Virus record (IMG/VR): IMGVR_UViG_3300009159_000255
Coordinates: 1-27,385 of that record
Direction: 5' to 3' (one strand)
Length of the DNA stretch: 27,385 bases
Source of the DNA: a virus
Part shown: positions 17,319 through 25,710 of the stretch, piece after piece
Numbering within the stretch: position 1 is the stretch's first letter
Layout: every line of letters starts with the position of its first letter
Program-made: the position numbers and the translations under genes
The notes under the pieces: model-generated
What the model was told of the DNA's origin: nothing
Database searches by the model: none
Seen by the model: only the letters and a program-made list of their open reading frames with translations

Positions 17319-17672
17319 TTAGATCTTTTTTGGCTGACCTTCTCTTGACTTCTTATAGTTTATAGCATAATCATCAGGAGTGCAATTAAATTTTTGAATA
17401 AACATATCGTGTAATTTTTTTGGTTCAATTCTAAACTTTTCGCATATACTCTGCATTAACATGTCAATATGATCGTAATCAGTTTTTGGAATATACTTTA
17501 AATTGTGTTCGAGTTGTTCAACGGCATTCTTATCGCTATCTTTCACATTATCTTCCACAGCACGATCATAGCGGAAACGTGCGCCCATAAGTCCACGAGC
17601 ACCTGCACTAATTGGATGTTTAGATTGTACACCAACTGACATTACTGCTTCTTTAATTTCTTTTAAACGCAT
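17319..17672 (-). CDS. Hypothetical protein, 117 aa, with MRLKEIKEA leader
   Basis: Not recognised. It begins MRLKEIKEAVMS, one of several proteins in this region sharing the start MRxxE(I/L/F/V), and includes IKE|A, a match to the (I/L)xE cleavage pattern of T4 prohead protease. Next comes GARGLMGARFRYDRAVED with Gly and Arg, then an acidic helix and MLMQSICEKFRIEPKKLHDMFIQKF, which looks like a small helical domain. The ATG overlaps the last base of the upstream gene's stop. Being next to virion-type genes, it may be an internal head protein, but that is an inference from the leader alone. Confidence 0.7.
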   Translation of the reverse strand: MRLKEIKEAVMSVGVQSKHPISAGARGLMGARFRYDRAVEDNVKDSDKNAVEQLEHNLKYIPKTDYDHIDMLMQSICEKFRIEPKKLHDMFIQKFNCTPDDYAINYKKSREGQPKKI

Positions 17673-18043
17673 TAGATTTTTCCGTTTGCTTGTAGTTTAG
17701 GTGGCCCACTATTACTTACCTTAAACCCCATTTTGGCTGCTTGCTTCTTATCCTCGCCCGGCTTAATATCAACAGTTAAAGCATTGGACCACCTTGGATC
17801 ATTTGCTTCTTCATCATTGACTGGAATATGTCCACTGGCTTCGTCCATGTCATCCTTTGGCTTCTTACCATGCTTTTTCATATTAATAGCAATGGCTGCT
17901 TGTTGTGCAGGGTTGGCTGCTTCTGGTACACAGTTAGGCACAGTTTTGCCATTCTTCTTTTTAGTACCAACAGGATAATAACCTTTCCAGCAAGGATTGT
18001 CTTTAGGGTCCTTTAAACCTTCTAGGATTTCTTTAATTCTCAC
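17672..18043 (-). CDS. Hypothetical protein, 123 aa, with CWKGYxxVGxKxKNGKxVPNCVP motif
   Basis: The 123-residue protein begins with GTG at 18043 (overlapping the TGA of the 49-aa gene) and starts MRIKEILEGL, with ILE|G fitting a prohead-protease site. Residues about 17-40 contain CWKGYYPVGTKKKNGKTVPNCVP, a Cys-bounded motif I have seen in many marine phage structural or hypothetical proteins. The rest is Lys/Asp-rich and low in hydrophobic residues, with ANDPRWSNALTVDIKPGEDKKQAAKMGFKV near the end. The two Cys may form a disulfide or bind a metal. No function is known. It fits a packaged protein, which is an inference. Confidence 0.7.
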   Translation of the reverse strand: MRIKEILEGLKDPKDNPCWKGYYPVGTKKKNGKTVPNCVPEAANPAQQAAIAINMKKHGKKPKDDMDEASGHIPVNDEEANDPRWSNALTVDIKPGEDKKQAAKMGFKVSNSGPPKLQANGKI

Positions 18044-18189
18044 GGCTTGCCTTGTCCTCTATATTTCTTAAAACTACGTTTAGTATGCTTGTTCATTGAA
18101 CTCATTTTGAGATTACCAATACCTTGGCTAGTCTTCTTGTTATTCTTGATGCGCTCTACTTTAACTTCTTTGATTGCTTTACTTGCCAT
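18040..18189 (-). CDS. Very basic small protein, 49 aa
   Basis: A 49-residue ORF with ATG at 18189, a good ribosome-binding site (AGGGAGAA, about 8 bases away) and a TGA at 18040 that overlaps the GTG of the next gene. The product starts MASKAIKEVKVERIKNN and ends KKYRGQGKP; about a third of its residues are Lys or Arg. Similar Lys-rich proteins with a terminal KYRGQG occur in marine T4-like phages (recollection). Likely roles are nucleic-acid binding or capsid interior neutralisation. It is the only good gene for this gap and is shorter than usual annotation cut-offs. Confidence 0.75.
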   Translation of the reverse strand: MASKAIKEVKVERIKNNKKTSQGIGNLKMSSMNKHTKRSFKKYRGQGKP

Positions 18190-18202
18190 AATTGATTCTC
18201 CC

Positions 18203-24543: not shown

Positions 24544-24564
24544 GATTAAGCCCGATTGATAATA

Positions 24565-24572
24565 TATTTATT
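24565..24572 (-). promoter_or_regulatory. T4-late-promoter-like element AATAAATA upstream of the 1185-aa gene
   Basis: AATAAATA matches the late consensus at 7 of 8 positions, 21 bases before the ATG at 24543. It overlaps the stop codon of the ligase-like gene. The predicted message would have a short leader with only a weak CGGGC near the start, so translation may be inefficient or coupled. Confidence 0.45.
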
Positions 24573-25710
24573 AATGTTCAAAATTGGCAGCACTAAACTT
24601 AGCACGGTCAACAGTTTTAAATGGGCCTGTTTTTGTATGTACAAGATATCCTTCTTGTCCAGGCACATCATTAATATGTGCTTGCATTTGTGCAGGGTGC
24701 GCATCTAGATTATTAACAATATGATCCTTAACACGCATGATTCCAATAAATGCTTGGCACAATACTTTGTATCCTGCTCTGTTGCTTTCAATATATGTTT
24801 GAATATTACTCATCTTTTGTGGACTTACTTTTTTACTTGCTAAGAAGTCAGTAATAAAATCACTGCCAAAATTATCAAAATTACGCTGCTTAACTCTGTA
24901 GTTGCCATATGCTTGTAGTAATGTAGGAAGATCTTTTATCTTCAATGAAGACAATGTTGCTTCATCTAAAAATTTATCCATTACTGCGCCATTTGAAGTA
25001 ATGAAATTCTCAATCGATTTAAGATCTGGCGGTAGTTTAACTCTTGGTGGGACTGTGAATTGATCAGTGACCATTAACAGCGGGCCTTTGTTGTTAACTG
25101 CTGCTGGCAATTTGCTAATGTGTCTGCCAGGCGGAGCAACAAACTGACCTTGCGGATCCATGCCAGGTGCTTTTGAAAAGAATGTATGTACACAAATACC
25201 ACTTGTGCTTTTTGCTATCCCTTGACCTAGTTCACTATTAGTTGGCACAGTATAAACAACAGTATTAGGTTTGAATACAAACTGATTGTTTTGAACTGGG
25301 GGAGTTTGACTCCATAGCAAATCACCAAATAACCATCCACGGAAACTATTTGGAACACTTGCTTCGAACTGCGGCCAAAGTGCAGACATCATTGATATTA
25401 AATCTTCTCTGCCACCACCTTTACGTTGCGAATATACTTGTGCCAATTGATTGGGATTACGCGGTAATGTTCCTGCTTTGAACATATGTTTATCAACCAG
25501 AGAGAATCCTTGTTCATCTCTGCCCCAAATTAATGCAGGTTTACCGTCTGGTTTAATGCTAATTGTTTCGGGATTACTTGCCATTTGTTTTATAGCAGCA
25601 ATGGCACGTTTTGCTCCAACCGAACCGCCTAATAGTATCTCATCTTCGGGGTGAGGTACTCTTGCTTTTGTTGGGTCGTATTCTTCAATGAGGAATTCGG
25701 TTGCTCGCAT
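24571..25710 (-). CDS. Nucleic-acid-ligase-like nucleotidyltransferase (DUF6267-like)
   Basis: The 379-residue protein begins MRATEFLIEEYDP, a start shared with marine phage homologues that I recall as DUF6267. Residues 53-64 (KPDGKPALIWGR) fit KxDG, motif I of the nucleotidyltransferase superfamily including ATP-dependent ligases and capping enzymes. GWLFGDLLW (125-133) is a plausible motif III/IIIa, and EGYLVHTK (353-360) fits EGxVxK of motif IV, with a further Lys at 365. The motif spacing suggests an inserted region between III and IV. An RNA or DNA ligase, or a nucleotidylated protein, is possible; activity is unproven. FLIE|E fits a prohead-protease site. The ATG lies 4 bases from a CATAAATA element with no ribosome-binding site. 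Confidence 0.7.
   Translation of the reverse strand: MRATEFLIEEYDPTKARVPHPEDEILLGGSVGAKRAIAAIKQMASNPETISIKPDGKPALIWGRDEQGFSLVDKHMFKAGTLPRNPNQLAQVYSQRKGGGREDLISMMSALWPQFEASVPNSFRGWLFGDLLWSQTPPVQNNQFVFKPNTVVYTVPTNSELGQGIAKSTSGICVHTFFSKAPGMDPQGQFVAPPGRHISKLPAAVNNKGPLLMVTDQFTVPPRVKLPPDLKSIENFITSNGAVMDKFLDEATLSSLKIKDLPTLLQAYGNYRVKQRNFDNFGSDFITDFLASKKVSPQKMSNIQTYIESNRAGYKVLCQAFIGIMRVKDHIVNNLDAHPAQMQAHINDVPGQEGYLVHTKTGPFKTVDRAKFSAANFEH

Follow-up and report, generated by a model that had tools for sequence, protein, structure and literature searches.

Candidate capsid-targeting leaders and protease-type sites at cassette joins in a putative cargo gene block of a T4-type jumbo phage

Bacteriophage T4 has internal proteins, IPI-III and Alt, with capsid targeting sequences (CTS), N-terminal propeptides of 10-19 residues ending in L/I-x-E that are cut by the protease gp21; that T4-like phages can use such leaders to load a variety of proteins is, as a general idea, already in the literature (PMC9026906; here and below, literature statements refer to the available part of each cited paper). 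Here we describe a block of genes in a 27,385-nucleotide (nt) stretch of viral DNA (IMG/VR record IMGVR_UViG_3300009159_000255, positions 1 to 27,385), which we call the window, whose products begin with leaders of this kind and whose larger members, above all an 1185-amino-acid (aa) protein, would be strings of exchangeable cassettes. We consider it very probable that this block encodes late-expressed, capsid-targeted and protease-processed head cargo, and less certain, though still probable, that part of it takes the form of polyproteins.

The window cargo resembles T4 IPI-III and Alt, which are injected head cargo (PMC9026906), in its N-terminal propeptides ending in L/I-x-E, and it contains a cassette with the fold of an ADP-ribosyltransferase, the activity of Alt. 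T4 cargo consists of single proteins with leaders starting MKTYQEF, whereas the window, known from sequence alone, encodes many enzymes with swapped cassettes and glutamate sites at internal joins, behind leaders of the form MRxxE. Polyvalent proteins, which are predicted to be packaged and injected, also combine several domains in one chain, including ADP-ribosyltransferase and ParB domains (PMC5512222). These are processed by embedded peptidases, and the available text of that paper contains no mention of 'gp21' and one of 'prohead protease', in the reference list; the polyvalent signature domains ArdC-N, LPD, DdrB-ParB and MPTase gave no Pfam match in the ten window proteins scanned, and the Agrobacterium phage Atu_ph07 gave one sub-threshold LPD3 match. 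In SPN3US and phiKZ, as proposed for the window, a gp21-related protease cuts after xxE, with N-terminal propeptides and proteins co-packaged with DNA; in contrast to the window, SPN3US sites start with A (ASE, AVE, ALE), the propeptides are mostly long, and the available text describes no cassette polyproteins (PMC10052503, PMC9026906). Purified virions of the cyanophages S-CREM2, S-SCSM1 and S-SZBM1 have yielded an NMNAT-like nucleotidyltransferase whose homologue is the first domain of the 1185-aa protein (PMC10665884, PMC9602691, PMC9146016); kinases, a SAM hydrolase and a Cas9-like nuclease have likewise been detected in cyanomyovirus virions, and we find leaders on several enzymes. In searches of the open-licence PMC literature, largely of listings and abstracts, we found no description of gp21-type sites at multidomain joins or of leaders on these enzymes.

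A simple caller accepts 30 genes in the window, all but one on the minus strand, as are all cargo genes, leaders, joins and promoter-like motifs given below. The family-B polymerase of the window is 50.6% identical to that of Sinorhizobium phage Phosso, 47.9% to that of Atu_ph07 and about 42-43.5% to those of a Vibrio phage and the RaK2/121Q group, affinities which indicate that the window derives, as a fragment, from a T4-type jumbo phage of the RaK2/Phosso kind. Contigs of relatives are labelled G### and homologous loci L###; close relatives were collected via DUF6267 (L001-L004), the 1185-aa protein (L105-L117) and the polymerase (L119-L167), with contigs partly shared between these sets.

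A preliminary description of the window had singled out five genes with MRxxE starts, and all five lie on the minus strand where it placed them, with the N-termini it gave and an (I/L)xE site within 14 residues, ending at residues 8, 8, 14, 8 and 9. They encode a 117-aa protein (17319-17672; leader MRLKEIKE↓A, the arrow marking the candidate cut), a GTG-started 123-aa protein (17672-18043; MRIKEILE↓G, followed by three cassettes beginning GLKDPKDNPCWKGY, AANPAQQ and SGHIP), a 377-aa protein (18203-19336; MRFNEVVTYSYIEE↓T, ending SYIEE↓T), the 1185-aa protein (20986-24543; MRVEELHE↓E, leader at 24520-24543 with P1 at residue 8) and a 379-aa DUF6267 protein (24571-25710; Pfam E 1.4e-31; leader MRATEFLIE↓E at 25684-25710 with P1 at residue 9). 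The further sites it had listed are likewise present: ISE↓S at residue 29 of a 349-aa protein (19336-20385; a leader-like 29-aa start ending TISE↓S), LLE↓G at residue 31 of the 377-aa protein, and LSE↓S at residue 15 of a 151-aa PGDYG protein (7676-8131; MDPKFFRKYLDMLSE↓S). Six cargo genes have short N-terminal leaders ending in L/I-x-E, as in the T4 propeptides to which the five MRxxE starts had been likened, with lengths of 8, 8, 14, 8, 9 and 15 residues; the three 8-residue leaders fall slightly below 9, and the 349-aa protein would need 29. In this last family, [IFL][ST]E recurs near residue 29 in the three members displayed that far (L105, L109 and L110).

To gauge chance, we searched genes of at least 60 aa for M[KR]x(1-4)E combined with an [LI]xE between residues 5 and 16 and compared the counts with position-wise N-terminus shuffles. 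The pattern occurs in 5 of 29 window genes (shuffles average 1.0, maximum 4 in 300), in 6/76 genes of G001 (expected 0.75, maximum 4) and in 3/40 of G004 (expected 0.64, maximum 3), and the signal is weaker in whole genomes, with 12/623 in Phosso (expected 4.5, maximum 13), 20/800 in Atu_ph07 (8.1, maximum 16) and little enrichment in RaK2 (13/514; 7.8, maximum 15). Two further contigs give 4/185 (G008; expected 1.2, a count reached by 11/500 shuffles) and 4/209 (G011; reached by 17/500), and not all of the matching starts look like leaders. As the pattern was devised after sight of the finding, the chance figure for the window is optimistic, and tests on other gene families are the better guide. 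The four leader-bearing genes of G008 start MRASEFIVE↓S, MRAQEFLKE↓E, MRASEFIAE↓G and MRLNELFE↓N, and members of the 117-aa family vary in sequence and keep the site (MRLKEIKE↓A, MRVKEIME↓A, MRLKEIME↓A, MRFKEILE↓A, MRIKEITE↓A, MRVKEITE↓A, MRSKEFIQE↓A and MRLHEILSE↓A).

For the PGDYG family, 80 of 82 relatives in viral contigs were kept. As the start we used the closest M that lies 9 or more residues upstream, a choice that cuts some leaders short; L110 and L246 were dropped by design and L213 for an open 5' end, leaving 47 distinct leaders, that of the window among them. The core of these proteins is alignable from [IVL][NTS]DxWF onwards and the sequence before it is unalignable, yet [LI]xE is present in 45 of the 47 leaders and VxE in the other two (shuffle mean 12.8, maximum 25 in 5000). 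When the motif is searched with A, K, N, S, D, Q, T or G instead of the glutamate, counts are at or near shuffle level. These results support the view that leader ends are conserved as a function rather than as a sequence.

DUF6267 allows leaders and joins to be compared for the same domain, in a sample of the best 80 of at least 495 relatives (L281-L360). Three had no usable match near the domain start. Of the remaining 77 loci, the domain is preceded by no more than 45 residues in 22 and is internal in 55; 48 of these 55 proteins begin with a Pol-beta-like domain marked by GGN[VI]F. The leaders before GGN[VI]F end exactly in [LI]xE in 26 of 28 distinct cases, the others being one VxE and one bare M. 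In the 25 aa before internal DUF6267, [LI]xE occurs in 47/47 distinct sequences (shuffle 12.7, maximum 23 in 2000); among 718 control 25-mers taken from other parts of these proteins the share is 8%. Leaders of stand-alone DUF6267 proteins, one of fewer than 5 residues having been dropped, contain it in 14/21 cases (shuffle 4.4, maximum 10), and those of the clade of the window in 7/7 rows (MRATEFLIE, MRATEFLTE twice, MRAKEILTE, MRANEFLLE, MRAQEFLFE and MRAQEFLTE).

A comparable site precedes the CWKGY cassette, the first of the 123-aa protein, for which 80 of 336 relatives were kept and whose start reads GL[KR][DN]P[KE][DE]NPCW in many proteins. Across 41 distinct upstream stretches, 35 internal and 6 near the N-terminus, drawn from the polymerase, DUF6267 and CWKGY searches, P1 is E in 41/41 and P3 is L, V or I in 36/41, with P2 variable (3.27 bits). 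The glutamate could be the cassette's own, so the hydrophobic P3 is the telling part of this site. At the N-termini of CWKGY proteins, [LI]xE is found in 27/48 distinct 20-mers (shuffle 10.1, maximum 17), compared with 17% of 660 interior 20-mers.

The two other cassettes of the 123-aa protein, AANP and SGHIP, begin at the same glutamate whether they follow an N-terminal leader or lie inside unrelated protein sequence. AANP occurs behind 4 distinct N-termini and at 5 internal joins (P3 V, I, T, Y and Y), and SGHIP behind 5 N-termini and at 3 internal joins (P3 M, I and V). In the window, the latter junction is DDMDE↓ASGHIP, with E68 at 17840-17842 and M at P3.

The 1185-aa protein is a further mosaic, with NMNAT/cytidylyltransferase-like, DUF5661, DUF6934-like, KptA-like ADP-ribosyltransferase, ParB-like and 5'-nucleotidase (HAD) cassettes. 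Its nucleotidyltransferase domain (residues 1-200, 23944-24543; HFGH motif, phrog_3041 E 2.6e-31) is joined to DUF5661 at GLGE↓SVGES (23914-23940). The join VAQESVSE↓EANIPP (23050-23091, V at P3), behind which the cassette differs in G001, G004 and L003, precedes the ADP-ribosyltransferase-like cassette (residues 494-608, 22720-23064), and this is followed by RGVNE↓EKKPKK (22693-22725, V at P3) and KFYDLTE↓TREGA (22561-22596). SISE↓AKVKLY (22072-22101) leads to the ParB-like domain (21718-22020; PDB phmmer E 1.1e-5 to the ParB family, phrog_1033 E 5e-9), and a further join is TYTE↓SWSPME (21703-21726). The last join, FESIME↓DDAKPRVYLDMDG (21457-21513), precedes a 5'(3')-deoxyribonucleotidase-like HAD domain (21004-21489; phrog_2643 E 1.2e-19), and a PGDYG or HD cassette is inserted there in L110 and L003. 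P3 is thus L or I at four of the seven joins (GLGE, DLTE, SISE and SIME) and V at two (SVSE and GVNE). Relatives of this protein keep the first and last domains constant and exchange the middle ones (ADP-ribosyltransferase-like, WPEYV/GWHRT, ParB-like, KKPKKPK and HD cassettes) at joins such as VAQESVSE↓EANIPP, VAQESVVE↓EKKPKK, VAQESVSE↓VAKVKL, SISE↓AKVKL and FESIME↓DDAKPR. In G011, a 1074-aa protein fuses a domain that by eye resembles the 377-aa protein to DUF6267 through VMLTE↓AKARIDHPED, although the window encodes the two as individual genes, each with its own leader; the PGDYG domain, likewise a leader-bearing gene of its own in the window, is internal in L110. With a mean pLDDT of 41.7, the AlphaFold2 (AF2) model of the full-length 1185-aa protein was too poor for use, and linkers were for that reason not derived from structure.

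A broader survey of 41 cargo proteins gave 130 clusters of alignment boundaries, located in 23 of them, with orthologous boundaries counted repeatedly. Within 7 aa of a boundary, [LIV]xE occurs at 56 clusters (29.4 expected), [LI]xE at 39 (19.8 expected) and [ST]xE at 40 (15.8 expected); these three head 81 motif classes, each count being reached by 0/400 randomisations. What the preliminary description had missed is that comparable sites also occur at cassette joins within the multidomain proteins, so that part of the cargo looks like polyproteins. As the joins mostly carry a leader-type site, the protease probably also cuts some of the mosaic proteins into separate enzymes.

A protease of the expected type is encoded by the nearest complete genomes. 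PF03420 (Peptidase_S77, gp21) was found in Phosso, Atu_ph07 and RaK2, as in T4, in the three cyanophages S-CREM2, S-SCSM1 and S-SZBM1, and in 3 of 10 further contigs, including G008, whose polymerase is 68% identical to that of the window. Of nine tested contigs that carry cassettes of the 123-aa protein, seven have it, and the three that reach 350 kb or more are all among these. The blocks GExxHP and GVSSRG, which we take to hold the catalytic His and Ser of gp21, are invariant in six rows. Capsid proteins of Phosso, Atu_ph07, RaK2, G008, G010 and G011 carry an (L/I)xE site (PLME↓TATAG, PLME↓NATAG, ALFE↓SATAG, YLKE↓NATAG, YLTE↓TATSG and NIME↓SASAG), presumably near the T4 gp23 cut position, and a scaffold-like protein of Atu_ph07 has 25 sites. 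The form of the capsid sites is consistent with the L/I-x-E specificity stated for gp21 (PMC9026906). We also considered whether gp21 is truly missing from some carriers, such as G009 (264 kb, no gp21 match), and set this aside. One end of that contig adjoins homologues of two pre-portal G008 genes (41% over 271 aa, E 5e-83; 22%, E 3e-11) and its capsid match is a short 117-aa protein, so its head genes probably lie off the contig. The capsid-gene search, which left out G006, G007, G012-G014, G025 and G026, gave no match in G024, G016, G017 and G005.

Homologues of the cargo have been detected in virions. Published virion proteins of S-CREM2 number 52; a cytidylyltransferase, a kinase, a SAM hydrolase and a Cas9-like nuclease are on the list, and NMNAT-like proteins are reported from virions of S-CBWM1, S-SZBM1 and S-SCSM1 (PMC10665884), as the original accounts of S-SCSM1 (PMC9602691) and S-SZBM1 (PMC9146016) bear out. 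In blastp searches, the first domain of the 1185-aa protein matches S-CREM2_154 (E 1e-18), S-SCSM1_91 (E 9e-18) and S-SZBM1_140 (E 5e-15), and all three of these virion-detected homologues have leaders (MKNFSSFLTE↓A, MKSFLQFLKE↓A and MRFRQFIIE↓A). The available text of the three proteome papers reports no leader and leaves carriage versus co-purification open (PMC10665884, PMC9602691, PMC9146016). Among S-CREM2 genes as called in this analysis, a strict leader pattern occurs in 4/28 non-structural or hypothetical virion proteins, 0/24 structural proteins and 1/156 undetected ones (Fisher p = 0.002; the pattern was written after leaders were known elsewhere, S-CREM2_154 included). The T4-derived F[LI]xE in residues 2-30 gives 4/28, 0/24 and 2/156 (p = 0.005), and a looser [LI]xE test gives 7/28, 5/24 and 14/156 (p = 0.02). 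A tandem array of eleven Atu_ph07 genes (gp53-gp63) has starts of the form M[KR]WxxL[TNI]E or MRLFQLLE; they fall within coding sequences 31-76, a cluster for which detection of 29 products in virions is given as one figure (PMC6102473).

Late expression may be signalled by TAAATA, which we take to be the T4 late promoter core. This motif lies 10 nt before the DUF6267 start (25715-25720), 27 nt before the 1185-aa protein (24565-24570; same spacing in G001, G004, L105 and L109), 28 nt before the 349-aa protein (20408-20413) and 11 nt before the PGDYG protein (8137-8142). Overall it is found within 60 nt upstream of 5/30 window genes, four of them among the seven cargo genes, and in 5/382 coding 60-mers. 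Spacing is kept in relatives for the DUF6267 (10-13 nt before the start), 1185-aa and 349-aa families. The distance of only 10-11 nt to the ATG in the DUF6267 and PGDYG genes suggests nearly leaderless late messages. The same upstream scan found no TAAATA before the IP genes of T4 itself.

The proposal of capsid-targeted, processed cargo made in the preliminary description is thus supported by gp21 and capsid sites in relatives, by the persistence of leader ends and by homologues in virions. Leaders, sites, their persistence, cassette swaps and the relatives' protease are read directly from sequence, and the virion homologues come from published work; targeting, cutting, delivery and roles in the cell we infer. 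Each cargo protein would start with a short capsid-targeting leader ending in (L/I/V)xE; the leader would carry it into the prohead core, where the gp21-type protease of the phage would cut after the glutamate, and the cargo would exit the head together with the DNA at infection. In its fullest form, large T4-type phages would carry capsid-delivered polyproteins, modular chains of RNA-repair, NAD and ADP-ribosyl enzymes with a single leader that the maturation protease would dice in the prohead, and the (L/I/V)xE joins would be both cut sites and exchange points between phages, a model that we put forward tentatively, giving it slightly less than an even chance.

A number of observations weigh against these proposals. 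Orthologues are mutually related, and leader and join counts are non-independent events. Some leaders are missing or altered: three 1185-aa orthologues keep MRLDE and lose the N-terminal [LI]xE (L105 MRLDELDNEP, L109 MRLDEIDQTI and L112 MRLDEIDQPN), cyanophage DUF6267 is often leaderless (rows L101, L103 and L104 have no leader block, nor does L102) (L102: in-frame start MSNVKQLKHLEHLED, likely start MSNVKQLK; its alignment row begins upstream of the latter and was not counted there), 7/21 stand-alone DUF6267 proteins are without a leader site, and in 11/45 PGDYG leaders, which make a weaker case, the sole [LI]xE is at residue 5 (MKINE type). The leader pattern is not enriched in T4 (5/246 vs 4.5 expected) and is weak in G010 (3/296, reached by 54/500 shuffles, not all leader-like). 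Joins without L, I or V at P3 comprise TYTE↓S, the one such case among the seven of the window, STQE↓A, RYDE↓A twice, DDMDE↓A and VAQESWSPME in L003; the internal PGDYG domain of L110 follows HSFESAEAK, with no such site, and is itself followed by ESVNE↓ADD, and in the S-PM2 fusion of DUF6267 and nucleotidyltransferase both the leader and a join site are missing. In the 25 aa before CWKGY, [LI]xE reaches only 25/47 (shuffle 16.0; 8/2000 reach it). PF03420 found no match in four contigs of the closest relatives, all fragments, nor in the 3 tested contigs with Pol-beta-like/DUF6267 fusions (95-262 kb), and a six-row gp21 profile found none in ten contigs, all fragments. gp21 is absent from the 27,385-base window too, from which we draw no verdict of refutation, as the window is a 27-kb fragment. 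The virion data rest on few peptides (3 unique for S-CREM2_154, PMC10665884; 2 for S-SZBM1_140, PMC9146016), and co-purification is possible according to the authors (PMC10665884, PMC9602691). Many virion proteins are without such a leader, S-SCSM1_90, 92 and 93 among those labelled so, and the DUF6267 protein next to the S-SZBM1 enzyme (141) is also without one; it is not among the 30 listed virion proteins (PMC9146016).

These points bear differently on the alternatives. The leaders could be genuine gp21-cut capsid tags with internal sites that are mere linker, the mosaics being packaged whole and the joins marking recombination points. We regard this as unlikely, if worth serious attention: multidomain packaged phage proteins have been described as polyvalent proteins (PMC5512222), several joins have no L, I or V at P3, and boundaries show an enrichment of [ST]xE equal to that of [LIV]xE, so that the boundary signal may partly be linker composition; against whole packaging stand the DUF6267 joins (47/47 vs 8% elsewhere in the same proteins), the hydrophobic P3 before CWKGY beside a variable P2, and the coincidence of cassette starts with leader ends in stand-alone copies. 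An account with no capsid link, in which shared N-termini are a translation or recombination device enabling gene swaps, or chance plus common descent, would accommodate near-identical neighbouring starts (MRIKEI), which could arise by gene conversion, and the leader that the fused copy of the 117-aa protein retains in L105. It seems very improbable to us given that same-domain leaders are unalignable between phages yet keep (L/I)xE, that leader proteins are enriched among the non-structural proteins detected in S-CREM2 virions, and that late-type promoters lie upstream. Packaged cargo whose leaders bind the tail, baseplate or capsid surface and undergo no gp21 processing is another reading to which we give very little weight. 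An aspartate at position 10 of T4 IPIII permits targeting without processing (PMC9026906), and the three 1185-aa orthologues that keep MRLDE and lose the site would fit; on the other side, related phages have a site of identical form in their capsid protein and scaffold.

The chemistry of the cargo would be mostly that of nucleotides, NAD and ADP-ribosyl groups, possibly with RNA repair. The ADP-ribosyltransferase-like cassette models as a KptA/Tpt1 fold (AF2 pLDDT 78; Foldseek to KptA E 4.4e-4, probability 1.00, TM 0.58 by query length). In DUF6267, KxDG, EG and K are invariant in 11 rows, with KPDG, EG and K..R in the window copy by eye, motifs from which we read the domain as nucleotidyltransferase/RNA-ligase-like without database support; a DUF6267 profile search of the PDB gave nothing below E 0.1 and found no ligase. 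Its partner in L283 shows GSTGKKPTSGDLD, by eye like Pol-beta enzymes, and the GGN[VI]F Pol-beta-like domain and DUF6267 possibly form an undescribed nucleotidyltransferase plus ligase-like pair. In jumbo phages, RNA ligases work with RlaP Pol-beta enzymes, KptA and HAD phosphatases (PMC7824862). Given these enzyme sets, the KptA fold, the DUF6267 motifs and the Pol-beta-like partner, a packaged RNA-repair and NAD kit is a reasonable guess for the cargo.

The leaders provide a sequence rule by which, among 'hypothetical' or 'metabolic' proteins encoded by jumbo and marine T4-type phages, those carried in the particle could be recognised. They bear on the published doubt as to whether the NMNAT-like enzymes and kinases of cyanophages are true cargo or co-purified contaminants, and make this doubt testable. 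If the joins are cut, the phage maturation protease would act as a polyprotein protease, and the cassettes would amount to a natural catalogue of early anti-host or anti-defence enzymes together with short head-loading tags. If the polyprotein reading is true, a ready-made kit for repair and takeover would reach the host ahead of phage gene expression.

Several further proteins deserve mention. The gene with leader MRASEFIVE↓S in G008 (L252:3972-5549) encodes a 525-aa protein with a KptA-like start (sub-threshold Pfam match) and a GH19 domain. Directly behind an LEE site it has NRRGFLGAMG, a stretch with a weak, sub-threshold likeness to a twin-arginine motif, and cutting there might expose an export signal. 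A 391-aa protein of G001 (L001:16951-18126) with leader MRISEILE↓ANYW has a sigma-70 region 4 domain (E 7e-14) and is possibly a packaged transcription factor. Most of gp53-gp63 of Atu_ph07 (NC_042013 39484-50592, L099) contain YRG[MI] stretches that by eye are suggestive of ADP-ribosyltransferases, a likeness for which Pfam gave no support, and gp53 has a zeta-toxin-like kinase domain (E 1.5e-14). In the window, 3726-4511 combines a P-loop kinase-like N-terminus with a WHDGH nucleotidyltransferase-like half, by eye a likeness to NadR-type NAD enzymes. A leaderless subtilase-family protein (L110:1802-4363, E 4.9e-18) is inserted in the cargo block of one relative. Finally, the 671-aa product of window positions 5599-7614 by eye starts like a signal peptide and resembles an outer-membrane beta barrel at its C-terminus; G001 and G004 encode proteins similar to it in length and start.

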